Below, piece by piece: positions 1,350 through 12,707 of a stretch of DNA of 34,632 nt (its first letter is position 1; each line of letters begins with the position of its first letter). The DNA comes from Planctomycetota bacterium (GTDB lineage Bacteria > Planctomycetota > Planctomycetia > Isosphaerales > Isosphaeraceae). The stretch covers positions 1 to 34,632 of the forward strand of contig JAJYDB010000016.1 in the NCBI GenBank assembly GCA_021777845.1, in the 5' to 3' direction. The notes beneath the pieces are model-generated. The model did not search any database. It was not told the DNA's origin and was given only the letters and a program-made list of their open reading frames with translations. The translations under genes were made by a program, and so were the position numbers.

Positions 1350-2117
1350 ACAGGGAGTTTGAATTTTTGAAGACATCCACGGTCGCGACCATGTCGCCTT
1401 TCGGCGAGAAGTCCCGCAGGAATCGATCTCGGAGCAATGAGATGGGTCGTCGCGTTTTGGCATCCCAGATCATCACTTTGAAGAGGTGGTCAGGCCCGAA
1501 CACTCGCAGAGACGGAAAAATTCGATGCGCGGTTCTTAGGAACTGTAACCAGCGAGTTAGACGAGGGGGATAATTCGCCTAAGTCGCAACCCATCGACCG
1601 TCCGGCAAGAGTAGAAGTTTCCCTCGGCGGATAATCGCCCGCATGTCCAGTGACGGCTACGACGAGACCAGTCGCGTGGGACGGCCATAATTCCAGCTAA
1701 CGCCGTCGTCGAGCAATGACATATCCACCGCTCGGGTCGAACCCAAAACCTCCCACTGTCTCATTCGGACCGACCGCCCCCTCATAACCCACAAATCGTT
1801 CTCTTTCTCAAGGTTCCGTAGAGTCACGTCAGGGCTGTCGGGTTGCCAATACGCAACGGTTTGAGCCTTGCGAGAAAGAGCGTACCCTGGGTATCGAACC
1901 GCCGCCGGTGGGATCAAGTACGCTTGAGCCGAGTTCACCCTGCTGTTTCCCAAATCTCAACCAATGTGTCGTCTCGAGGGTACTTTGGAGTGCATGCGAT
2001 CAGCCTCGATCCGACTTTGGAGTAGCGGAATCCCCTCGATCCATCGCCCACAACGGTCAGGCTCGATCCATGCCGGCGGGTCTCTAAATTCCAGATGACA
2101 ATCGTATGCGGCGGATC
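1350..2117 (-). pseudogene. Decayed WD40-repeat protein gene, multiple frames
   Basis: Three leftward segments in different frames each look like WD40 blades. Segment 1 (2117 down to 1935, stop at 1935-1937) reads HTIVIWNLETRR and later DDTLVEIWETAG. Segment 2 (about 1953 to 1657) has YALSRKAQTVAYW and DVTLRNLEKEND. Segment 3 (about 1503 to 1350) has FKVMIWDAKTRRP and FSPKGDMVATVD. Each shows the blade ending (V-x-[IL]-W/N-[DN]-[AL]) and the next blade's FSPKG-like start. Stops and frame changes separate the segments, no start codon or N-terminal region precedes the first, and the gene runs into nothing on its 3' side. I infer a relic of a WD40 protein, such as the common planctomycete kinase- or cytochrome-linked beta-propellers. 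Exact ends are uncertain. Confidence 0.7.
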
Positions 2118-2155
2118 GGGATCCGACGCGGAATTAATTCGCTGAGTTCGAGGGA

Positions 2156-3148
2156 TTAGGAACCACTCGCGGCGCGGAGAACGGTTTCGAGCGCAACCAT
2201 TTGTGCCTGACCGTCTTCAGCCGGGTCAACAAGACGGCCGTGGTTTTCGATGGCGTCGCAGAAGGAGTCGACCATTGCGGCGTATTGGTCACGACTGTCG
2301 AAGCTGATTTGTTCGCTCTGCGATTCGCGTCGAATTATCGCAAAGGGTTTTGCCGGCGGCAGATAAGCGTCGGGAACCTCGATCGTGCCACTCGCGCCGA
2401 CGAGCTCGTAAGCACATCGAAAAGGCTGGTCGAAAGCACAGTCGAAAGTTGCCAGCACGCCGTCGGGAAACGCAAGAGCCGCGGTTAGGCCAAGATCGAC
2501 GCCTGTTGGCCCGAATCGGCCGACAGCTTCAATCCGGATTGGCTCGGCACCAGCGAAGAATCGAGCTGTATTCAGGCCATAACATCCAACGTCCCAGAGA
2601 GATCCGCCGCCGCGAGCGGGATCGAGTCGCCAGTCGTTCAGGTCGATTGTGAATGAGAACGAGGAGCGGATCAGTCGCAACTCGCCGATCGCGCCCGATC
2701 GCACCAGGCGACGAACCGCCATCGAGCGCGCTTGGTGCCGCCACATGAAGGCTTCCATGAGAACGACACCGCGCGCTCGGCAATACTCAACCATGTGATT
2801 TGCTTCTTGGGAGTCGAGTGCAAGCGGCTTTTCGCAGAGAATGTGCTTGCCTGCCGCGGCGGCCGCCTCGACCCAAGGGCGGTGAAGTTCATTTGGGAGA
2901 GGGATGTAAACAGCGTCAATCGTTGGGCTTGCGATAAGCTCTTCGTAGCTTGAACACGTGGCGGGGATTTGGAACTCGCTTGCCCAAGCTTGGACGTTCG
3001 CGAGGTTCCGACCAGCGATGGTATCGAGGGTGGCATGGTGAGAGCCCCGAATTCCGGGGATTAAGCCTCGGCGGGCGATCCGCGCGCAGCCGAGGATGCC
3101 AAACCTTATGCGTCGACGCCCGAGAGTCTCAAGGTTATCGGCCGACAT
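2156..3148 (-). CDS. Gfo/Idh/MocA family oxidoreductase
   Basis: This 330-residue protein is a predicted cytoplasmic NAD(P)-dependent sugar or polyol dehydrogenase. The N-terminal Rossmann fold starts at residue 15 (RFGILGCARIA, a GxxGxxxIA-type nucleotide loop). The family EKP motif is CEKPLALD (Glu106-Lys107-Pro108). The substrate domain carries GGGSLWDVGCY at about 180-190, the segment that usually ends with the catalytic residues; here it reads CYGLN, as in dihydrodiol dehydrogenase or xylose dehydrogenase-like members, rather than the inositol dehydrogenase GxH form. The length is typical for the family. The ATG is preceded by AGGAGG ten bases upstream, so the start is well supported. 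It stands alone, divergent from the hydrolase gene at 3447. Substrate cannot be told from sequence. Confidence 0.93.
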   Translation of the reverse strand: MSADNLETLGRRRIRFGILGCARIARRGLIPGIRGSHHATLDTIAGRNLANVQAWASEFQIPATCSSYEELIASPTIDAVYIPLPNELHRPWVEAAAAAGKHILCEKPLALDSQEANHMVEYCRARGVVLMEAFMWRHQARSMAVRRLVRSGAIGELRLIRSSFSFTIDLNDWRLDPARGGGSLWDVGCYGLNTARFFAGAEPIRIEAVGRFGPTGVDLGLTAALAFPDGVLATFDCAFDQPFRCAYELVGASGTIEVPDAYLPPAKPFAIIRRESQSEQISFDSRDQYAAMVDSFCDAIENHGRLVDPAEDGQAQMVALETVLRAASGS

Positions 3149-3446
3149 GATCGCGCAACCTCCTGGTCAAAAGCATTCAAAAGCAAGCCCGCAACCGGGG
3201 GACTATTTGCCTTGCCGCGTCTTTCGCGTTCAGCTTCGCTCAAAGCGAGTCAAAAGCCAAGTCACGAGGTTGAGTTATAAACGGACCCAGCTGACCCTAA
3301 TCAGGGCCTAGGCTCGCATTCCCAGGTAGAGGCAAAGCGGCTATGATCGCCTAGCGGGCGTTGGCCACGGAAGGCCCTCGTCACGGTTCGCGGTCTCAGT
3401 TGGCCTCAACGCCGCGGCCGGACTCGATCGGGAAGGATACCGAGCC
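3149..3446. other. Divergent intergenic region, no gene seen
   Basis: This region of 298 bases lies between the leftward oxidoreductase and the rightward hydrolase. It must hold both promoters. An AT-rich TATAAA at about 3274 is a possible -10 for the rightward gene, but I see no convincing -35. A small CCCTAATCAGGG hairpin lies near 3295-3306. No tRNA or coding frame is supported. Confidence 0.5.
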
Positions 3447-4670
3447 TTGACTCAGGCTTTTCGCCCTCGCGGAACTCACATCATCGCCCGACTGATCGCA
3501 TTTTCGGCGTTTGCCCTCTGCGGTTGCGCCTCGATGCGGATGAACGCGCCGTCGATCGACCTGCGTCCATGCACAGACGGTTTTGCCTACACCGACGACG
3601 GCTGGCGGCTTGGCATTCGGCACTATCGTCCCGAGCACCCAGACCCGCGCAAGTTGCCGGTCGTGCTCTGCCACGGGCTAGGGCTCAACGGCACTTTTTG
3701 GACGATCACCGACGCGCATCTACCCAGTCAGCTAGTCGCGCACGGTTACGAAGTCTTCGTTCCGGACCTGCGCGGTTCGGGTTCGAGCCGTCGCGTGGGA
3801 CGAATCGGCCAGGTAAACGAGATCATCCGCCAAACGCCGTTGCTGGCGATCAAAGAAGCCGAATGGACCGTCGACGACCTCGCAATGTACGACGTTCCGG
3901 CGATTCTCGATTATGTCCAGGCTGCTACCGGCCGCGACCGTGTGAACTGGGTTGGACACAGCTTAGGTGGAATGCTCATGTTCGCGCACCTCGAGCGCAC
4001 GGCTCATCCTGAACGCATCGCGACCTTCGTCGGGATGGGGAGCACAATCGCGCAAGCTGAAGTGCCGCAAAGGGATATGTTGCGAGCAAACCACGCTTTG
4101 CGGACGCTTTGCCGGCTGGTGAGTACGAGTAGAATGGCGAGGCCGATGTCCGTTGCCCGGCCGCCGGGTTTAGGTCGCGTCGACGCGTTCTATTACACTT
4201 CAACAAACGTCGACCGCCGGACCATCTCGCGGTTTTACGGGTATGTGCTCGAGGATCTCAGCAAGGGAGCGCTCAAGCAGCTCGATCCTTACCTGGCGCG
4301 CGGCCATTTTCTCTCAGCCGACGGTACGATTGACTACGTCCACGAATCGAAAGGTCTCACCACGCCGACGCTGCTGATCGCGGGCGAAGCCGACATTATG
4401 TCTGATATCCCTTCCACCATAATAACTTACGAAGGGATTGGCAGCCCCGACAAGACGCTCATGCGGTTCGGCAAGCGCGAGGGACAGATTGACGACTACG
4501 GGCATTGCGACCTGGTCTGGAGCCGTCATGCGCCGCACGAGATTTTTCCGCCGCTGATTGATTGGCTCGATCGTCGGCAGCCGGGGGTACTTGCGTTGCC
4601 GCAACATCCTCCGCAGGTGGTGCCGTCGCCGCAATTGCCTTCCTCACAAAGCGTTGCTTCGCCAACATGA
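3447..4670 (+). CDS. Exported alpha/beta-hydrolase, probable lipoprotein
   Basis: This 407-residue protein is a predicted esterase or lipase of the alpha/beta-hydrolase fold. Residues 1-30 form a signal peptide ending in ALCGCAS, a slightly unusual lipobox (Cys at -2), so lipid anchoring is likely but not certain. The oxyanion segment is VVLCHGLGLNGTFW. The nucleophile elbow GHSLGG places the catalytic serine at residue 172. The acid is probably the Asp in LIAGEADIMSD and the histidine is in DDYGHCDLVW, so a full triad is visible. The C-terminal ~25 residues are proline/serine/glutamine-rich and look disordered. The start is TTG with GGAAGG ten bases upstream; no better start precedes the signal peptide. 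It is monocistronic, facing a convergent Nudix gene. Substrate is unknown. Confidence 0.88.
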   Translation: MTQAFRPRGTHIIARLIAFSAFALCGCASMRMNAPSIDLRPCTDGFAYTDDGWRLGIRHYRPEHPDPRKLPVVLCHGLGLNGTFWTITDAHLPSQLVAHGYEVFVPDLRGSGSSRRVGRIGQVNEIIRQTPLLAIKEAEWTVDDLAMYDVPAILDYVQAATGRDRVNWVGHSLGGMLMFAHLERTAHPERIATFVGMGSTIAQAEVPQRDMLRANHALRTLCRLVSTSRMARPMSVARPPGLGRVDAFYYTSTNVDRRTISRFYGYVLEDLSKGALKQLDPYLARGHFLSADGTIDYVHESKGLTTPTLLIAGEADIMSDIPSTIITYEGIGSPDKTLMRFGKREGQIDDYGHCDLVWSRHAPHEIFPPLIDWLDRRQPGVLALPQHPPQVVPSPQLPSSQSVASPT

Positions 4671-4728
4671 CATCCGACCGGCGTCTTCTGCCGCCGACAA
4701 TCCCACACGCGGGATAAATTGCGGACGC

Positions 4729-5439
4729 TCAATTTTGTCCCGCATGCGGGATCAAGGTGGTGCAGAGCGCGTCGAGGCAAATTTGCGACCAGGTCTCGAG
4801 GTCGTCGCGAATCGCCGCGAGGTCGTCGAGATTTAAAAAGCCGGTTTCGACGAGTCCATCCTCGCGCGCGACGACGTTGGGGGTTTCAAGTCGAAAGAGG
4901 TGGACGATTCCTAGGTGAACGCGTCCGACTGGGGTAGCGTCGTCGTTTATAAGTCCAAAACGCGAAATCATACCTGGAGATCGGATTTCGACTTCTTCTT
5001 CGAGTTCGCGACGAACTGCGGTTTCGTAGGCATCGAGCGTGGAAAGTCCGGGACCTTGGGCGTCGGCCTCATCGACGTGGCCACCAACGCCGATGGAACG
5101 TTTGCGACGCAAACGGACCTCGCCGGAGCCGTCGCCGCGTCGGTAGCAAAAAACCTGGTCTCCAGATCGAAAAACGACATAAGGAATGATCTGCTTGTAA
5201 CTTGGGTCGTCTTCGACAATGCTGCGGGGTCGAAATGAGACGAGTTCGGGGACGAGCAGGGCTTCGACGTAGCGGTCGGCGTCGGGGGAGAAGCCTTGGA
5301 AACGTCCGAGTTGGTCGAAAGCCGCAGATGGGACGACGAGGACGCGTTCGTCTTTGGGGTTAGAGGGAGCATTGTTCACGCGGGACCTTTGACTTTCGCG
5401 GGTTTTTTCGGCGGGTTGTCCTGCGGATGCGTTAGGCAT
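4729..5439 (-). CDS. Nudix-family phosphohydrolase with enlarged Nudix box
   Basis: The protein is a predicted Nudix hydrolase acting on a nucleoside-diphosphate-linked compound. The order is: a segment with VVPSAAFDQLGRFQGF, then SYKQIIPYVVF and YRRGDGSGEVRL, then the Nudix box. The box begins SIGVGGHVD and ends AVRRELEEEVEI. The catalytic REL-EEE half is intact, but the first Gly and the REL are about ten residues further apart than in the classical G-x5-E-x7-RELxEE pattern. This combination matches what I recall of the predicted MutT-type phosphoesterase group COG4112. The start is uncertain: I chose ATG at 5439 (236 aa); the frame is open to an ATG at 5529 (266 aa), which would overlap yraN by 23 bases. 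Neither has a clear ribosome-binding site. It lies just downstream of yraN, probably co-transcribed. Confidence 0.85.
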   Translation of the reverse strand: MPNASAGQPAEKTRESQRSRVNNAPSNPKDERVLVVPSAAFDQLGRFQGFSPDADRYVEALLVPELVSFRPRSIVEDDPSYKQIIPYVVFRSGDQVFCYRRGDGSGEVRLRRKRSIGVGGHVDEADAQGPGLSTLDAYETAVRRELEEEVEIRSPGMISRFGLINDDATPVGRVHLGIVHLFRLETPNVVAREDGLVETGFLNLDDLAAIRDDLETWSQICLDALCTTLIPHAGQN

Positions 5440-5506
5440 GCCGCTCGGGGTGCTCACCTTGAGCACCTGGACGCACTCTACCAGGTTGGGGAGGGGGGCG
5501 CCACAA

Positions 5507-5893
5507 TTAGTCGTAGGCTTCGAAGGCATTGCGATAGTGTTTAATGTCAGGCGGCTGATTATCGTCAGGCCAAGTGATTGCGATCACGTCGAAGCGCCCT
5601 GGGTGATTCTGGAGACGGTGTTTGTGAGCGAAACGGCGGGCGGCCCTTGTCAACCTGCGTTGTTTTTCAAGGGTGACAGCCTCGGCGGGGCAACCGCGGC
5701 GTCGCGTTTTCACTTCGACGTACACGAGGGTGCGGTCGTCGACGGCGATCAGGTCGATCTCGCCGTGACGAACGCGCACACCCCTGGCCAGAATTCGCCA
5801 ACCGAGTTTTTTGAGGTAACGCGCAGCGGCCAACTCGCCGCGGTCCCCGAGGCAGCGGTTCCAGAACGCGCGCAAGCGTCGCATCGGGTCCAT
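5507..5893 (-). CDS. yraN: YraN family (UPF0102) nuclease-like protein
   Basis: This 128-residue protein has the compact restriction-endonuclease-like fold of YraN. The core motif HGEIDLIAVD followed by VYVEVKTRRR gives the PD-(D/E)xK signature (Asp in EIDLI, then E-x-K). The N-terminal GDRGELAAARYLKKLGW and the C-terminal FDVIAITW are also typical, and the length is normal. Bacterial genomes often carry yraN near rnhB or rRNA maturation genes; here it lies between a small lipoprotein and a Nudix gene. The precise cellular role of the family is not established; a nuclease role in DNA processing is inferred from the fold. The start is the first ATG (5893), with a second ATG three codons on; no ribosome-binding site decides between them. 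Confidence 0.94.
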   Translation of the reverse strand: MDPMRRLRAFWNRCLGDRGELAAARYLKKLGWRILARGVRVRHGEIDLIAVDDRTLVYVEVKTRRRGCPAEAVTLEKQRRLTRAARRFAHKHRLQNHPGRFDVIAITWPDDNQPPDIKHYRNAFEAYD

Positions 5894-5965
5894 GTTGGAA
5901 TGCCGTAATCGGTTGTTGCGAGAGCCTTTACAGGATCACTGCAACTGTAGGTCATTTCCCCCGGG

Positions 5966-6229
5966 TCATTTTATGCCGAGGTCGTTTTCGATCTCGCGAC
6001 CCTCGCTGCTCATCGCTCCCGAGAGGCGGCTGTTCTTGAAGAAGCCCTTTGGAGCAACCGAGCCCACGTTTTTGTCGGCGTCGTCCGCCGAATCCGCGGA
6101 TGACGCGTCGACCTGATCGCGGGGCCGCAGTCCGTGTCGCGTCGACTCGCAGCCGAGCAGCCCGGGAGTGATCAGCACCGCGGCGAACACAACGCGCAAC
6201 AGTTTACGCGGTAACGAGATCGATTTCAT
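5966..6229 (-). CDS. Small lipoprotein of unknown function
   Basis: This 87-residue protein starts MKSISLPRKLLRVVFAAV and has a clear lipobox, GLLGC, so it should be cut and lipid-anchored at that cysteine. The frame is open further upstream, but GGAGGAG seven bases before the ATG at 6229 fixes this start. The middle is rich in Ser, Ala and Asp (DASSADSADDADKN). The last part, FFKNSRLSGAMSSEGREIE, ending NDLGIK, resembles, as far as I recall, the tail of other short planctomycete lipoproteins, so it is probably the conserved part. It lies 72 bases upstream of yraN on the same strand and may share its transcript. I do not recognise a function. Confidence 0.8.
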   Translation of the reverse strand: MKSISLPRKLLRVVFAAVLITPGLLGCESTRHGLRPRDQVDASSADSADDADKNVGSVAPKGFFKNSRLSGAMSSEGREIENDLGIK

Positions 6230-6409
6230 CGCGACTCCTCCGTGAACCCGCGTTTCGGTGGATGATCGGGGCCAAGAATAGGCCCTATACGATATGAGTC
6301 CGCGCCCTTCTGGAGCTGACGCAATCCAACGCGACCTGGATTGTGCCGCAAACATGTTCGGAGGTCCAGACCTGTTCGGAGACGGTGCCGGAGGTGCCGC
6401 GCAAGGGGG

Positions 6410-7303
6410 TCAGTCTTTCTTCACAAAGCGTTTCATAAGCGTGACTTCATTGCCTTTCTCGTTGTATCGGAATTCGTCGACGAGGCCCTTGGCGAGCATG
6501 ATGCCGAAGCCGCCTTCGCGGAGGCCGAGGTCGTTGCGGAGTTCGAGGTGCCCGATGGGATCTTCATCTGAGGCGGCGTGTGGGATATCGCCGGGGTTAA
6601 AGCCGGGTCCTTGGTCGCTGATGATCAGAACGACCTTGTCGGGGTCGATCCGGTAGGTGATGCGGAGCACGAGGTCGGCGTTCTTGCGGTGTCCCCACTC
6701 GATGGCGTTGCTGCCCATTTCCATCACAACTTGTTTCAAGTCTTTGATTTGGCGCTCCGTAAGCGGCGTATGGGCATAGAGGTCGGCGAGCATATCGTTG
6801 GCTTGTTGCAGGTGAGTGCTTTCGCTGCGGATGTCGAAATTGATCTCGCCGGTGGTGCCGTGGGTTTCGCGTTCGATGCGCCATTTGACTGCCTCGTCGA
6901 CGACGTCGAAGAGTTGCGCAGGTGTGAAGGGTTTGGTGAGGTAGCCGTTGGCGCCGACGCGCACGCCGGCGGCGCGGTGGCTGGCGTCGCTGAGCGCCGT
7001 GACCATGATGACAGGGATGAGGTTGGTGTCGCGGTTGCGTTTAAGTTGGTCGCAAACCGCAAACCCGTCGAGGTCCGGGAGCATGAGGTCGAGGAGTACG
7101 AGATCGGGCGCGTGCTCGTGGACGGCCGGTATGACCTGTCGGCCTGAGTAGAGCTGAATCGGCGTAAAGTCGCGCGCTTTGACGAGGCTAGCCAGGATAT
7201 CGTTGGCATCGCGCTCATCATCAACAATTAAAACGGTGCGCGGCATGGGCACGAACTCGACAGAGGGCGAGGTCGGATTCGGGTCGACAACATCGGGCGG
7301 CAT
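6410..7303 (-). CDS. Response regulator fused to RsbW-like HATPase
   Basis: This protein of about 297 residues joins a receiver domain to a GHKL ATPase. The receiver (about 20-140) has the acid pair in IVDDERD, the phospho-acceptor Asp72 in LVLLDLMLPD, and Lys124 in LTKPF. A linker leads to an anti-sigma/serine kinase-type ATPase (about 180-297). Its N-box is EMGSNAIEWGH, the G1 loop SDQGPGFNPG and the G2 segment EGGFGIMLAKGLVDE. There is no phospho-acceptor His domain, so I expect phosphorylation of the receiver to control an RsbW-like kinase or anti-sigma activity, as in partner-switching systems; no STAS partner is visible nearby. Start is uncertain: ATG at 7303 was chosen; TTG at 7330 and ATG at 7246 are possible, none with a ribosome-binding site. 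It is divergent from the exbB-like gene. Confidence 0.9.
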   Translation of the reverse strand: MPPDVVDPNPTSPSVEFVPMPRTVLIVDDERDANDILASLVKARDFTPIQLYSGRQVIPAVHEHAPDLVLLDLMLPDLDGFAVCDQLKRNRDTNLIPVIMVTALSDASHRAAGVRVGANGYLTKPFTPAQLFDVVDEAVKWRIERETHGTTGEINFDIRSESTHLQQANDMLADLYAHTPLTERQIKDLKQVVMEMGSNAIEWGHRKNADLVLRITYRIDPDKVVLIISDQGPGFNPGDIPHAASDEDPIGHLELRNDLGLREGGFGIMLAKGLVDEFRYNEKGNEVTLMKRFVKKD

Positions 7304-7527
7304 TGTCGCGCGCCGGGTGGCGGCCGGCAAGGTATCGCGTGCAGGTCACATCCCCGCGCCCTTGCCGGCATGCGCATGCCCAAGGCACAATAAATATACC
7401 GTACAAAGGCGGTTTCGGGACGGGGTCGTGTCCGTTCGGGCACGCGAAGCCGGCGCGAATCGCGTTCTTGACCGCTGCGAGCGGGGGTTTTCTCGCCTGG
7501 ATTCGTATCTTTTCGGGACCATTCGGC

Positions 7528-8235
7528 ATGGAAATCACGAGAATCATTGACACGTTTGGTTATGTGATCTACTTTGCGCTGGCGATGCTGGCGGTTTGGG
7601 GCGTATACAACGCGATCATGCTGTATCGGAATCTCGGGAAGAAATCGCTGGCGGACCCCGCGCCGTTGTTGAAGCAGATGGGCGACATGCTGAAGGCGGG
7701 CAAAACCGAAGCAGCGGTCGCGGCGTGTCAGAACCCTCCCTATTGGCATACCGCGCTCGCGCAGTTGATGGCGGTGGCGCTGCGGAACCGCGAAAAAGGG
7801 CTGGCGAAAGTCAAATTGCTGCTGGTGATGGAATTCCACACTCAGGTGATTGCGGGGATGGAAAATCGATTGGCGTCGATTTCGACGATTGTGCGGATGG
7901 GGCCCTTGCTTGGGCTTTTGGGGACGGTGGCGAGCATGATCGGTGCGTTCGGGCGCATCGGCGGTTCGGAGAAGGTGAATCCAACCGACCTTGCGCGCGA
8001 CATTTCGCTGGCGTTGTGGGCGACCGGCTCGGGGTTGTTGATTGCGACGCCGATGATGATCGCGGGCAACGATATCCACGCGAAATTGCGTCATTTGCGC
8101 GACAACACTGAGCGTCAGTTACAGGACTTTCTGGAGATACTCGAGCAAATTGAGGTGTCGGCAGCCGCATCGCGTCCAGCGGCGCAGACACCGCGCGCAG
8201 GTTCGGGGCATGTTCGAGCTTTGCTGCCGCGCTGA
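7528..8235 (+). CDS. MotA/TolQ/ExbB proton channel family protein
   Basis: This 235-residue inner-membrane protein is a predicted subunit of a proton-driven ExbB-ExbD type motor. Transmembrane helix 1 is at about residues 9-30 (FGYVIYFALAMLAVWGVY). After a cytoplasmic stretch, the family core RMGPLLGLLGTVASMIGAF forms helix 2, and LALWATGSGLLIATPMMIAG forms helix 3. The C-terminal ~50 residues are a cytoplasmic tail with a helical part and a basic, proline-containing end. The frame is open back to 7303, but the upstream part is not membrane-like and overlaps the divergent regulator, so I used the ATG at 7528; a ribosome-binding site is weak. It is followed by an exbD gene 200 bases later and then a second exbD-like fusion. 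Confidence 0.92.
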   Translation: MEITRIIDTFGYVIYFALAMLAVWGVYNAIMLYRNLGKKSLADPAPLLKQMGDMLKAGKTEAAVAACQNPPYWHTALAQLMAVALRNREKGLAKVKLLLVMEFHTQVIAGMENRLASISTIVRMGPLLGLLGTVASMIGAFGRIGGSEKVNPTDLARDISLALWATGSGLLIATPMMIAGNDIHAKLRHLRDNTERQLQDFLEILEQIEVSAAASRPAAQTPRAGSGHVRALLPR

Positions 8236-8435
8236 GACAAACGCGTTCGCTTGCGTCGATTTGGCGGTTCCTAACGACTTTGAGAAGCGTTGTCGCAATC
8301 GGACTCGTCGCGATCGACGATACAAGACGAACGAGGGCCGGTGTTTAGCCTGAAAACTGGACGCAGTCGATCCGTTGTGATTTCGGCTCGGGTCGACGTC
8401 GCGAATTTCCAAAAGAGCCGCGGACGCGAATCGCC

Positions 8436-8861
8436 ATGTTGTTGAGACGCCAGTTCAACGAAGAGCGTGACGAGCACATCGACATGACGCCGATGGTCGA
8501 CGTTGTGTTTCAGCTCATGACTTTCATGCTGTTTTCGGTGCAGATGGCGCGGACCGACGATATTAAAGTGCCCGAGGCGAAGCACGGCGTGGGCGTGGAG
8601 GAGACGGTCGCAACGATCATCAACGTGCTGCGACCGAGCGCCGCGGGGGCGGAGCCTGTCATCAAGCTCGAGAAGGGCGACCGCGTGACGCTCGAGGAAG
8701 CGAAAAAGGTGATCGCCGCGGGGGTTGCCAAGGGAAAACGCAAGGTCGTCTTGGAAGCAGACGGCGACGTTCCACACGGCGAAGTGCTTAAAATCGCCGC
8801 GGCGGCCGCTGAAGTCGAGGGAGTAACAGTGCATATCGGCGTCCAAGAGCCGTCCAAATAG
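8436..8861 (+). CDS. ExbD/TolR family transport protein
   Basis: This 141-residue protein has one transmembrane helix near the N-terminus and a periplasmic domain. The key motif is HIDMTPMVDVVFQLMTF, with Asp22 in the position of the proton-carrying Asp25 of E. coli ExbD. The periplasmic part (about 45-141) has the usual fold, including LEEAKKVIAAGVAKG and KVVLEADGDVPHGEVLKI, which matches the TolR/ExbD alpha-beta domain. Length is normal. It should assemble with the ExbB-like protein encoded 200 bases upstream. The spacer 8236-8435 has no gene that I can see. Confidence 0.94.
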   Translation: MLLRRQFNEERDEHIDMTPMVDVVFQLMTFMLFSVQMARTDDIKVPEAKHGVGVEETVATIINVLRPSAAGAEPVIKLEKGDRVTLEEAKKVIAAGVAKGKRKVVLEADGDVPHGEVLKIAAAAAEVEGVTVHIGVQEPSK

Positions 8862-8927
8862 CGGTGGAACACCGCGACGAGTCTTTAATACGCTCCGATC
8901 GATCGCATTCGCGAGAGGAACGAATCG

Positions 8928-10334
8928 GTGACGACCTGGGATGTCTTTCATTCCGAACGTCTTGAAATCGAGCGCGGGCTTGCGACCGACGCAATTCGGG
9001 CGGCACTCGCGGCCGGGAGGCTGCGCGACGACGATTTAGTACGACCAACCGGCTCGAACATCCCCTGGACCGCTATTGCCGACGTCGCCGAACTTGTCTC
9101 CGCGACAACGACCGCGAAGATGCCTGTCGAGCCGGAAGTCAAAGCACCACCGGAAGTTAAATCGGCCGCGAAGTCCGAAAAGCCGCCTGCACCGGCCGTT
9201 GAGGTCCAGTCCTCCGAGCCGCCTGAATCGAAAGGGTCGACCGATTTCGACCCCACGCATCAGGCGGCCGAATTCTCGATTTCCGACTTCGTCGACGAAT
9301 CCGACTCGGACTTTGAAGAGACCGCCCCTGACGCCTTCGACGATGAAATCGAGGTGCTCGATGCGCTCGATATCCTCGAAGAAGACGGCGCACCGGTTTT
9401 AACGCCTCAGGGCGGTCTGACACCCGTGGACGACGACCTTGCCGTGCTCGACGAGTCCGACCTCATTGAAGTAGACGACGCCGAAGAGAAGCCGTTCGAC
9501 CCCCACACGCTCTTCGAGGTTGACGACGAGGACGACGACCAGGATCTCGACCATGAGGCCGTCGCGGCTGAGAGCGAGAGCGACGAACTTGAGGATGTCG
9601 CCAAGCAACTTACGGCCGACGCCCCTTCGCTTGAGCTTGATATCGAGCCCGACCTCGCCGACATGCCCGCAGGTGCATTTGACCTGCGTCCCGCCAGGCT
9701 CGACGCTGTGATCGACGATGACGAAGGTGCCGGCGACGACGATGAAGTTTACTTCGTCGCGGTGCCTGAGCCTCTGCCAGGCGATTTCGAGGAGGAGGAT
9801 CCGTTCGAGGAGGACGAGGACGCCGCGGAATTTACTCTCGCCCGCGGCAAGGCTGAAACGGTGGAGGAACTCGACCTGGCGGCGATGGTCGACGTTGCGT
9901 TCCAGCTTGTGCTGTTTTTCCTCGTGACCGCCACCACCGTCCTATACAAAAGCCTCGAAATCCCGCGTCCGAACGCCGACGCACCAAACCCCGGCGCGGT
10001 TCAAGGTCAGTCGCGCTCTCTGGAGGATCTCAAGGATGACTTCATTTTGGTTGAGATTGACGCCTCGGGCGGGGTCAAAATCGACCGCGAGAACGTGGCG
10101 GCTTCGATGAACGCATTGGTCGAAAATCTGCGAGCCGCCCGCGAGCGCACGAACCGAAAGTCGATGCTCCTCTCGGCCGACTTCAGCACGCCTCACAAAA
10201 ACGCGGTGATGGCGTACGACGCCGCCAGCGAAATCGGACTCGGAATCGCAATCGCAAACCCCACTCCGCCGCCGGCAAATACTCCGCCGGCCACACCCTC
10301 GCCTCCGGCTCGCCCAACCGCGTCGGGCGGTTGA
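8928..10334 (+). CDS. GYF-like, acidic linker, ExbD-like fusion protein
   Basis: This 468-residue protein has three parts. Residues about 3-58 resemble the GYF_2/DUF4339 type domain (WDVFHSE, then IRAALAAGRLRDDDLVRP and PWTAIADVAELV), normally a cytosolic protein-binding module. Residues about 65-305 are a very acidic, low-complexity linker rich in Asp, Glu, Pro and Ala. From about 312 comes an ExbD-like end: EELDLAAMVDVAFQLVLFFLV, with Asp322 in the proton-carrier position, a single transmembrane helix, then a periplasmic domain (about 360-445) and a Pro/Ala-rich tail. It is therefore much longer than a normal ExbD (about 140 aa). Start is GTG with GAGAGGAA seven bases upstream. It lies 66 bases after exbD, so it should be in the same operon and could be a second ExbD subunit of the same motor. 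Confidence 0.88.
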   Translation: MTTWDVFHSERLEIERGLATDAIRAALAAGRLRDDDLVRPTGSNIPWTAIADVAELVSATTTAKMPVEPEVKAPPEVKSAAKSEKPPAPAVEVQSSEPPESKGSTDFDPTHQAAEFSISDFVDESDSDFEETAPDAFDDEIEVLDALDILEEDGAPVLTPQGGLTPVDDDLAVLDESDLIEVDDAEEKPFDPHTLFEVDDEDDDQDLDHEAVAAESESDELEDVAKQLTADAPSLELDIEPDLADMPAGAFDLRPARLDAVIDDDEGAGDDDEVYFVAVPEPLPGDFEEEDPFEEDEDAAEFTLARGKAETVEELDLAAMVDVAFQLVLFFLVTATTVLYKSLEIPRPNADAPNPGAVQGQSRSLEDLKDDFILVEIDASGGVKIDRENVAASMNALVENLRAARERTNRKSMLLSADFSTPHKNAVMAYDAASEIGLGIAIANPTPPPANTPPATPSPPARPTASGG

Positions 10335-10364
10335 TTTTGAACCGATGCTCAACGCGGAACACAC

Positions 10365-10393
10365 TTGCAGGAGCATCAGAGGAAGTGTATTAT
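10365..10393 (+). promoter_or_regulatory. Sigma70-like promoter for DUF1549/DUF1553 gene
   Basis: TTGCAG (10365-10370) and TATTAT (10388-10393) are separated by exactly 17 bases, close to the consensus TTGACA-N17-TATAAT. Transcription would start near 10400. That leaves no room for a leader before the GTG at 10404 and favours the ATG at 10458, which has a ribosome-binding site. Inverted hexamers ACACTT (10361-10366) and AAGTGT (10383-10388) overlap the two boxes and might be an operator. Confidence 0.5.
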
Positions 10394-10457
10394 TTAACAA
10401 TCAGTGAACACCCCGCCGAGTAACAATCCCGCCGAGTCCGTTCGCCCGGGAGAGCCT

Positions 10458-12707
10458 ATGTGTCGTAAGACGAGCCGTCGAACTACGTCGCGACTTCTCG
10501 TCGTCCTGCTGCTGCCGGCGGCGATCGCTGCGCTTCAGGAGTCGGCGCATGCGGGCTCGGACTCGAAGGCGGAGGCGCCTTGGTGGAAACAGCCGCCGCA
10601 ACGTGTCGATCCACCCGCGCCGATCGGCGGCCCGGTCCGGAATCCGATCGACGCGTTTGTACTTAAGTCCTTGCAAGACAGTAGTTTAGCCCAAGCGCCG
10701 GAAGCCGACCGCAAAACCTTGATCCGGCGTCTGAGTTTTGACTTGATTGGTTTGCCGCCGACGCCTGAGGAAGTGGAGGCGTTCGAGCGCGACGACCGTC
10801 CGGACGCCTACGAGCGGCTCGTCGATCGCCTGCTTGACAGTCCTCATTACGGCGAGCGCTGGGGTCGACATTGGCTTGATCTGGCACGTTATGCCGAGAC
10901 AACAGGTTACGAGCGCGACAGCGATAAGCCCCACGCTTGGAAGTACCGCGACTACGTGATCGCCGCCTTCAACCACGACCTCCCCTATGACCGCTTTTTG
11001 CTCGAACAACTCGCCGGCGACGAAATCCCGGACGCCTCGCCCGCTAGTCGAACCGCCACAGGCTTTTATCGGCTTGGACTTTACGACGATGAGCCAGCTG
11101 ATCCTTTGATGGATCGCTTCGACCAGCTCGACGACATCGTGCGCACGGTCGGAACCACGGTGCTGGGACTGACGCTTCAATGCGCACGCTGTCACGACCA
11201 TAAGTTCGACCCGATCACACAGGCGGATTATTACAAGTTTGCCGCTTTTTTTGTCCCGGGACGCCAAACGGTCCGCGACAGCGAGCCGAGTATTACACTC
11301 GCCGCGGGAGGGCAACCCGAAGAGGCGCGGTCCGCCGAGTTTGAAAACCAAAAACGGGCCTTGCAGAGGCGAGTTGAGGAGATTCGAGCGGGTCGACTCG
11401 CTCAGATCAAGCTGGAACGCGTGCTGCGCAACGCCGACAACGACACCCTGGCCGCTTACCAGACACCGCGCGAGCGGCGCGACCCTGAGCAAACGACGCT
11501 CCTTCGCAGCGTGCAGGGAATGCTGCGGGTGGAGGAGGGGGAATTACAGAAGAGTTTCACCGCCGCGGAAAAGTCGGAAATCGAGAAGTTAGTCCATTCG
11601 ATTTTTGAGGTCGAGATCGTAAAGACGAGATCGATCAATCGAGTGCTCGGATTCACCGACGCGAGCTCGACCCCGGAGCCGACGCGCGTTCTCGTGCGAG
11701 GCGACGCGCATCGTCCCGGCGCCGTGGTATCGCCGGGATTTCCGTCGGCGATCGAGGCGCGCCCGCCGACGATCACGCCGCCGTCTACGGGAGGGACAAC
11801 CGGCCGTCGTCTGGCATTGGCGCGTTGGTTGACGCGCGACGACCATCCCCTGACTGCGCGGGTGATGGTTAATCGGATCTGGCAGCATCATTTTGGACAA
11901 GGGATCGTGGCCTCGCCGAGCGACTTCGGCGCGATGGGCGACTCCCCCGCCAACCCTGCCTTGCTTGATTGGCTGGCGCGCGAGTTCGTCACCCGCGGCT
12001 GGAGCGTGAAGGCGATGCACAGGTTGATGCTGACGTCGACGACGTATCGACAGTCGGGACGCTGGAACGAGACCGCTGCGGAGAACGACCCGGTCGCGGC
12101 CTCGCTTTGGAGGATGCCGCCGCGTCGCCTCGAGGCCGAGCCGACCCGCGACGCGGTGCTCGCGGTATCGGGCAGCTTGAATTTGGAGATCGGTGGTCCG
12201 AGCGTAACACCGCCGATCGACGACGTCGTTTTGCAAACGCAGTCGCGTCCGGGCGAAAACTGGCCGAAAGTCGACGAGCGGGCCGCTTTTCGGCGGAGTG
12301 TTTACGTGAAGGTGAAGCGGATGCTTGCCTTGCCCGAGCTTGAGGTGCTCGACGCGGCGGATAATGCGGAACCTTGCCCTCGCCGCGCCGTCACCACGAC
12401 TGCGCCGCAGGCGTTGACGCTGCTTAACAGCGCCTTCATGCACGACCAGGCCGCTCGCTTCGCCGCGAGGCTTCTACGCGAGGCCGGCGACAGCCCCTCG
12501 GCGCAAGTTGATCGCGTCTTCAAGCTTGCCTTTGGCCGTGGGCCGAGTATGCCCGAGCGCGACCAGGCGCTCGCGTTCCTTGAGTCGCAGGCCAAGCTCA
12601 TCGCGCGGCGGCCCCGTCCCGAAGACCGCGTCGAGCCCGCGCGCGAGGCCCTCCGCGCGTTGTGCCTCGTGATCCTAAATGCCAATGAGTTTGTGACGGT
12701 CGACTGA
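10458..12707 (+). CDS. DUF1549/DUF1553 exported protein (no PSCyt1 domain)
   Basis: This 749-residue protein begins with a basic signal peptide, MCRKTSRRTTSRLLVVLLL, ending around AHAG. The DUF1549 (PSCyt2) domain covers about 35-250, with the family segments RLSFDLIGLPPTPEEVEAF and GERWGRHWLDLARYAET. The motif CARCHDHKFDPI gives a CxxCH haem site at Cys242/Cys245/His246. The DUF1553 (PSD1) domain is in the C-terminal half: LTARVMVNRIWQHHFGQG, RRLEAEPTRDAVLAVSG and TAPQALTLLNSAFMHDQ. It lacks the N-terminal PSCyt1 cytochrome domain that its paralogue at 14285 has. The frame is open from GTG at 10404; I chose ATG 10458 because GGGAGAG lies just before it and the signal peptide then starts normally. 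Followed by a DUF1501 gene. Substrate unknown; redox role in degradation is inferred. Confidence 0.93.
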   Translation: MCRKTSRRTTSRLLVVLLLPAAIAALQESAHAGSDSKAEAPWWKQPPQRVDPPAPIGGPVRNPIDAFVLKSLQDSSLAQAPEADRKTLIRRLSFDLIGLPPTPEEVEAFERDDRPDAYERLVDRLLDSPHYGERWGRHWLDLARYAETTGYERDSDKPHAWKYRDYVIAAFNHDLPYDRFLLEQLAGDEIPDASPASRTATGFYRLGLYDDEPADPLMDRFDQLDDIVRTVGTTVLGLTLQCARCHDHKFDPITQADYYKFAAFFVPGRQTVRDSEPSITLAAGGQPEEARSAEFENQKRALQRRVEEIRAGRLAQIKLERVLRNADNDTLAAYQTPRERRDPEQTTLLRSVQGMLRVEEGELQKSFTAAEKSEIEKLVHSIFEVEIVKTRSINRVLGFTDASSTPEPTRVLVRGDAHRPGAVVSPGFPSAIEARPPTITPPSTGGTTGRRLALARWLTRDDHPLTARVMVNRIWQHHFGQGIVASPSDFGAMGDSPANPALLDWLAREFVTRGWSVKAMHRLMLTSTTYRQSGRWNETAAENDPVAASLWRMPPRRLEAEPTRDAVLAVSGSLNLEIGGPSVTPPIDDVVLQTQSRPGENWPKVDERAAFRRSVYVKVKRMLALPELEVLDAADNAEPCPRRAVTTTAPQALTLLNSAFMHDQAARFAARLLREAGDSPSAQVDRVFKLAFGRGPSMPERDQALAFLESQAKLIARRPRPEDRVEPAREALRALCLVILNANEFVTVD

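Follow-up and report, generated by a model that had tools for sequence, protein, structure and literature searches.

An ExbD paralog of Planctomycetia with a predicted GYF-fold head on a long acidic tether, encoded in a conserved exbB-exbD1-exbD2 trio

Introduction

In the motors of the Exb/Tol type, an ExbB/TolQ pentamer encloses an ExbD/TolR dimer whose transmembrane Asp binds a proton, and the N-terminus of ExbD lies in the cytoplasm. In the gliding motor of Myxococcus, the cytosolic domains of GltJ, which has a zinc ribbon in addition to its GYF domain, are thought to position or switch the machine. The AglR-AglQ-AglS motor associates one TolQ-like and two TolR-like subunits encoded by genes in a row (PMC3169522), the same machine includes the TonB-like proteins GltG and GltJ (PMC5349195), and one of the listed effectors of MglA, the polarity GTPase, is GltJ (PMC12288465). 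In the PVC group, a cluster has been described that combines a tolQ-like gene, two heterologous tolR-like genes, a single-TM vWA transducer and a TPR gene (PMC12204202), and this is the closest published statement to the locus examined here. Ton systems with ExbB, ExbD1 and ExbD2 likewise have more than one ExbD gene, and they are linked to TonB and to TonB-dependent receptors.

The window analysed here, a stretch of 34,632 nucleotides, corresponds to contig 107 in the genome (4.85 Mb, 92% complete) of a planctomycete of the family Isosphaeraceae, labelled f1 in our family numbering. It shares with the Agl motor the association of one TolQ-like and two TolR-like subunits, and with the PVC cluster the association of an ExbB/TolQ-type gene with two different ExbD/TolR-type genes. 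The product of the second exbD gene carries a cytoplasmic head on a long acidic linker. An earlier note, made from the sequence of the window, knew of no described ExbD with a GYF-like head; our own non-exhaustive search of the open-access literature agrees with it, since we came across no account of an ExbD headed by a GYF domain, a zinc ribbon or a kinase. Proteins built in this way are probably listed, uncommented, in domain databases.

Results

The trio and the parts of ExbD2

The features of the window on which the analysis bears are the following.

6410..7330, minus strand: receiver + HATPase_c_2 (RsbW-type) gene, divergent from exbB, candidate regulator (PF00072, E=1.5e-25; PF13581, E=5.4e-23)
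7528..8235, plus strand: exbB-type proton-channel subunit, 235 aa (PF01618 MotA_ExbB, E=1.3e-19; start in agreement with orthologs; gene 1 of the trio in 20/20 Isosphaeraceae loci)
8436..8861, plus strand: exbD1, 141 aa, ordinary ExbD with Asp22, without head (PF02472, E=1.5e-16; falls in the ExbD1 clade)
8928..10334, plus strand: exbD2, 468 aa, predicted GYF-fold head + acidic linker + ExbD (ORF, Pfam, ortholog profiles, AlphaFold2 with Foldseek)
8928..9101, plus strand: GYF_2-like head, aa 1-58 (family-wide GYF_2 matches, hhalign, AlphaFold2 with Foldseek)
9102..9851, plus strand: acidic linker, aa 59-308, with prolines near the head (composition)
9855..10244, plus strand: ExbD domain, aa 310-439 (PF02472), one TM helix followed by a periplasmic domain
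9891-9893, plus strand: codon of Asp322, within the ExbD domain
10266..10331, plus strand: Pro/Ala-rich C-terminal tail, aa 447-468 (sequence; orthologs likewise Pro/Ala-rich)

The exbD2 ORF is intact and starts with a GTG codon, and a Shine-Dalgarno-like stretch, GAGAGGA, read directly, ends 8 nt 5' of it. The ExbD domain of its product matches PF02472 over residues 310-439 (E=7.9e-17, 62 bits), its sole hydrophobic helix begins at about residue 314-327, and Asp322 is the Asp of an MVDV motif. The linker, predicted to be cytoplasmic and presumably disordered, counts 83 D/E, 12 K/R and 24 P over residues 60-308. Three readings of the earlier note are thus borne out by the Pfam matches and the composition: the ExbD-like end with Asp322 and one membrane helix, the long Asp/Glu linker, and the position of the gene behind a normal exbB and exbD pair on the same strand.

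A promoter/terminator scan was uninformative: it detected no promoter-like site, and terminator-like sites were fewer than the shuffled mean. Upstream, 14 of 20 further Isosphaeraceae loci likewise have the receiver-HATPase gene next to exbB. Downstream of the trio, between 10404 and 17650, lie PSCyt2/PSD1 (DUF1549/DUF1553) and DUF1501 genes, which form pairs typical of planctomycetes and are apparently unrelated to it.

Conservation in Isosphaeraceae

The window protein has matches in 90 of 99 relatives. An ExbD2 match is present in all Isosphaeraceae genomes that are at least 90% complete, and the members of the family with a weak match or none are incomplete MAGs. In every well-assembled Isosphaeraceae genome examined, ExbD2 is the third gene of exbB-exbD1-exbD2, a trio found in 20/20 loci of this family that were examined. 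All 27 Isosphaeraceae orthologs read to their start keep the head, the acidic linker and the ExbD domain, a number that excludes a chance fusion, and their linkers (121-256 aa, 21-36% D/E, net charge -26 to -72) conserve acidity rather than sequence. The three-part architecture is general in Isosphaeraceae and no peculiarity of the window genome. In other families, heads of this kind can be present on both ExbDs. The search for the same domain order in Planctomycetota that the earlier note proposed was fruitful: the trio and a headed ExbD2 were recovered across Isosphaeraceae and the class Planctomycetia.

As a separate observation, about 20 of 29 ortholog linkers (for example L012, L013, L034 and L037) contain within their otherwise acidic sequence the short motif [VLIF]A[LFI]P[VAT], some proteins having it three times; the window protein lacks it.

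The head of ExbD2

With the window head alone, Pfam gives GYF_2 only 14.1 bits (E=0.04) against a curated cut-off of 25.8, and a naive search of the window protein thus came close to dismissing a GYF head. The result is different at the level of the family, where GYF_2 matches 19 of 23 ortholog heads (best E=2.7e-6) and two of them pass the curated threshold (G041, 27.7 bits; G037, 26.9 bits). The profile search over residues 3-58 by which the GYF assignment was to be judged gives a match below the cut-off, no more than suggestive, for the window protein taken alone, and matches above the cut-off for two of its orthologs. In profile-profile alignments, whose E-values are those of single pairwise comparisons, the head profile matches bona fide Isosphaeraceae GYF_2 domains (hhalign, prob 90, E=1.5e-6) and the GYF-like heads of other families (prob 97.5, E=5.7e-12; prob 96.3, E=1.7e-9), which in turn match GYF_2 with prob 92-93.

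Structure prediction points in the same direction. A single-sequence prediction of the head was all helix with a pLDDT of 63, and the addition of one ortholog gave the GYF fold: from this two-sequence alignment, AlphaFold2 returned a model with a pLDDT of 88.8 and a pTM of 0.72, in which two strands are followed by a helix, a strand and a helix. When this model was submitted to Foldseek, GYF-domain chains (16 in number) filled ranks 1-16, the first being the GYF domain of GltJ (7z3c, E=4.7e-3, prob 1.00), and beyond the GYF chains there was no other match with appreciable probability. The alignment of the head profile with the single GltJ GYF sequence is weak (hhalign, prob 12, E=0.0026) and the GltJ GYF domain matches the Isosphaeraceae GYF_2 domains (E=5.5e-16), so that the link with GltJ rests on the structure and on the GYF_2 profiles. 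A PDB sequence search with the head profile yielded chance hits only. Taken together, the ortholog matches and the Foldseek ranking support the GYF-type head first proposed from the window sequence, and the head of ExbD2 is predicted to adopt this fold.

The ligand is another matter. Known GYF domains bind proline-rich peptides through the signature GPF-x4-[MV]-x2-W-x3-GYF. Ten residues are invariant in the heads of Isosphaeraceae orthologs (W4, D5, F7, L12, E13, D35, D36, L37, R39 and W47), and the hallmark residues GPF, pocket Trp and GYF are mostly replaced; in alignments of the window head, GPF becomes RGL, the pocket Trp becomes Ala and GYF becomes GRL. Since these pocket residues are lost, it is doubtful that Isosphaeraceae heads bind proline peptides in the usual mode, and the earlier expectation of such a ligand is weakened. 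In families f3 and f8, the Trp of the canonical pocket is invariant among the ExbD1 heads. Directly after the head, PP or PPP occurs in most orthologs, PPG motifs are nearly absent, and the proline content varies widely. The proline-rich cytoplasmic tails of the transducer-like protein described below (Isosphaeraceae G012 and G005) were considered as a GYF ligand and set aside, as they are not general.

Exchangeable heads across Planctomycetia

Our survey of headed ExbDs covers the Planctomycetota. When a profile was built from the membrane and periplasmic domain of ExbD2, the strong orthologs that it found (E<=1e-39) were confined to the class Planctomycetia, and the matches dropped off clearly outside it. 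The head profile of Isosphaeraceae, run against the whole phylum, gave only borderline matches outside this family because the heads found elsewhere are too diverged, and the genomic loci were therefore read instead. Besides Isosphaeraceae, the trio is kept in nearly all other Planctomycetia loci examined.

The head of ExbD2 varies with the lineage. A zinc ribbon (CxxC...CxxC) occupies the N-terminus of ExbD2 in 29 loci (families f2, f5, f7 and one f9 locus), often followed by a long acidic or proline-rich linker. GYF-like heads are found in families f1, f3, f4, f6, f8 and in locus L148, and in f3, f8 and L148 they are present with short linkers on both ExbD1 and ExbD2 (loci L086, L094, L095, L121-L132 and L148). 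In L142, the exbD2 gene (2051-3640, G381:C1) fuses in one frame a Ser/Thr kinase (Pkinase, E=1.1e-48) with ExbD (E=1.6e-19); the kinase is of the Hanks type and looks complete, it was found as an ExbD2 head in one genome, and its gene lies within a transducer-exbB-exbD1-exbD2-propeller operon. ExbD2 has no head in L090 and L147, which indicates that the head is dispensable for the motor in some lineages.

In a tree of 110 ExbD domains, ExbD1 and ExbD2 are separate (SH-aLRT 99), and each clade holds nearly all families. The two proteins thus form two ancient clades, maintained separately for a long time across the class. Parsimony gives about six changes of head state on the ExbD2 side of this tree, many forks of which are unresolved. 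The motor core was inherited and its cytoplasmic head exchanged, and the heads that occupy the ExbD2 slot (zinc ribbon, GYF-like, kinase) are all interaction or signalling domains.

Genomic context

In families f2, f5 and f7, the typical arrangement places upstream of the trio a HEAT/squalene-cyclase-like repeat protein and a protein with a single TM and about 300 residues (profile A6), and downstream of it a large protein with a TM helix, a TPR-like region and a PQQ/BamB-type propeller, to which an FHA domain is added at the N-terminus in several cases. Of 99 relatives, 95 have a match to profile A6. In Isosphaeraceae the A6 gene is unlinked to the trio, yet it still adjoins the HEAT and FHA-propeller genes. 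Two further loci of the window genome are concerned.

L181 (G000:C336), 1589-10562: HEAT/SQHop-like repeat protein, single-TM transducer-like protein, FHA-TM-TPR-PQQ propeller protein and SBP_bac_5 protein, unlinked to the trio
L117 (G000:C30), 3383-8270: ExbB, two ExbD and a vWA protein, additional to the trio

The window genome therefore holds the same gene set as the operon of the other families, split into two clusters. The transducer role of the A6 protein is a guess from synteny: a recognisable TonB_C domain was not found in it, and an SHLS-type motif was not seen in its TM helix in the alignment. With positive controls, the window genome gave no match to TonB_C (PF03544), to the TonB-receptor barrel (PF00593) or to TolB_N (PF04052); as this genome is 92% complete, single absences are not absolute.

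Discussion

Comparison with the described systems

The likeness with GltJ (AgmX) is the presence of a cytosolic GYF domain, the best structural match of our head, on an inner-membrane protein of the AglR/Q/S (TolQ/R/R) motor, and the zinc ribbon of GltJ is the other type of head seen on Planctomycetia ExbD2. The difference is that GltJ is a TonB-like transducer, whereas the head described here is borne by an ExbD with its proton-binding Asp. AglQ and AglS (162 and 194 aa) begin their ExbD domain at residues 15 and 28, which leaves no room for a head and a long linker, and a TonB_C domain of the GltG/GltJ type was not found in the window genome. By the tests made, the trio is not a member of the Agl-Glt system. 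In contrast to the PVC TolQRR-vWA cluster, the trio adjoins REC-HATPase and DUF1549/DUF1553 genes and is without a vWA or TPR neighbour; it is the separate cluster of contig C30 that resembles that system. As for the Ton systems with two ExbDs, the TonB and TonB-dependent receptors to which they are linked were not found in the window genome.

A proposed motor docked from the cytoplasm

The model that we favour, and consider somewhat probable, is that of a heteromeric Tol/Exb/Agl-type motor of Planctomycetia in which the head of ExbD2 docks a cytoplasmic partner and thereby allows the motor to be positioned or switched from within the cell. An ExbB pentamer would presumably surround one ExbD1 and one ExbD2, a mixed dimer being the simplest reading of two ancient, co-encoded and differently equipped ExbDs. 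The N-terminus of ExbD2 would lie in the cytoplasm, with the GYF-fold head at the end of a flexible tether, some 250 residues long and strongly negative. The head would act as a docking module, binding either a protein of the cytoplasm or that part of a membrane protein partner which faces the cytoplasm, and the docked partner would position or switch the motor. Candidate partners, which we do not rank, are the cytoplasmic domain of the FHA protein, the cytoplasmic tail of the transducer-like protein and the product of the divergent REC-HATPase gene. The output would probably be a force transmitted to the periplasm via the single-TM transducer-like protein and the FHA-TM-TPR-propeller protein. 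ExbD2 would then act as the fusion of a GltJ-like docking function with a channel subunit, the Agl-Glt machine of Myxococcus serving as a working analogue for docking. The combination of a long polyanionic tether with a head swapped for interaction or signalling domains makes partner docking or switching the likeliest role, in our interpretation. The second, cytoplasmically regulated ExbD of the earlier note keeps its first element, as a cytoplasmic tether is the natural reading and is strengthened by the zinc-ribbon and kinase heads; its regulation is what we infer.

The head and linker might also do less. They could only order the assembly of ExbD1 and ExbD2, or keep the motor close to a scaffold or to a region of the cytoplasm that is rich in charges, without conveying any signal. 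The GYF-like heads with short linkers on both ExbDs of f3 and f8 would suit a head-head pairing of this kind, and the linker, in which acidity and not sequence is conserved, also speaks for this reading; however, the Isosphaeraceae trio has its head on ExbD2 alone, and the kinase of L142, which looks catalytically complete and occupies this very site, argues for signalling, so that we hold a purely passive adaptor to be unlikely. It is quite improbable that the head regulates its own protein by folding back on the proline-rich linker or on the tail of a neighbouring ExbD2, thereby keeping the channel shut or the tether compact as long as no competitor is bound, in a resting state that requires no external partner. 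The prolines just after the head and the general affinity of GYF domains for such peptides speak for it, but the pocket residues are not conserved, the prolines vary widely with hardly any PPG among them, and the mechanism is impossible for the relatives with zinc-ribbon or kinase heads.

That the trio is an ordinary energiser of the TonB or Tol-Pal type, with an N-terminal extension of no relevance, is hardly credible. Its ExbB and ExbD domains are indeed typical, but the 92% complete window genome gave no match to TonB_C, to a TonB-dependent receptor or to TolB_N, and a folded head with 10 invariant residues is kept throughout the family. Beyond the docking model, a wider proposal can be made tentatively, and we judge it rather less than probable: the HEAT protein, the transducer-like protein, ExbB, ExbD1, ExbD2 and the FHA-TM-TPR-propeller protein would form a distinct trans-envelope motor of Planctomycetia with an exchangeable signalling head on ExbD2, gated or positioned by cytoplasmic signals, possibly a phosphorylation read by the FHA protein.

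Significance

The ExbB/ExbD, TolQ/TolR and MotA/MotB motors are usually thought to be controlled via the periplasm or by partner proteins. In the family described here, the proton-binding subunit itself bears the cytoplasmic interaction domain, and this domain is swapped (GYF, zinc ribbon, kinase) on a motor that is kept. Such exchangeable heads suggest a cell-envelope motor that can be controlled or positioned from inside, and their swapping makes cytoplasmic control of a motor directly testable in cultivable planctomycetes. More generally, the ExbD2 family points to a conserved and so far undescribed machine of the envelope, in a phylum whose cell envelopes are unusual.
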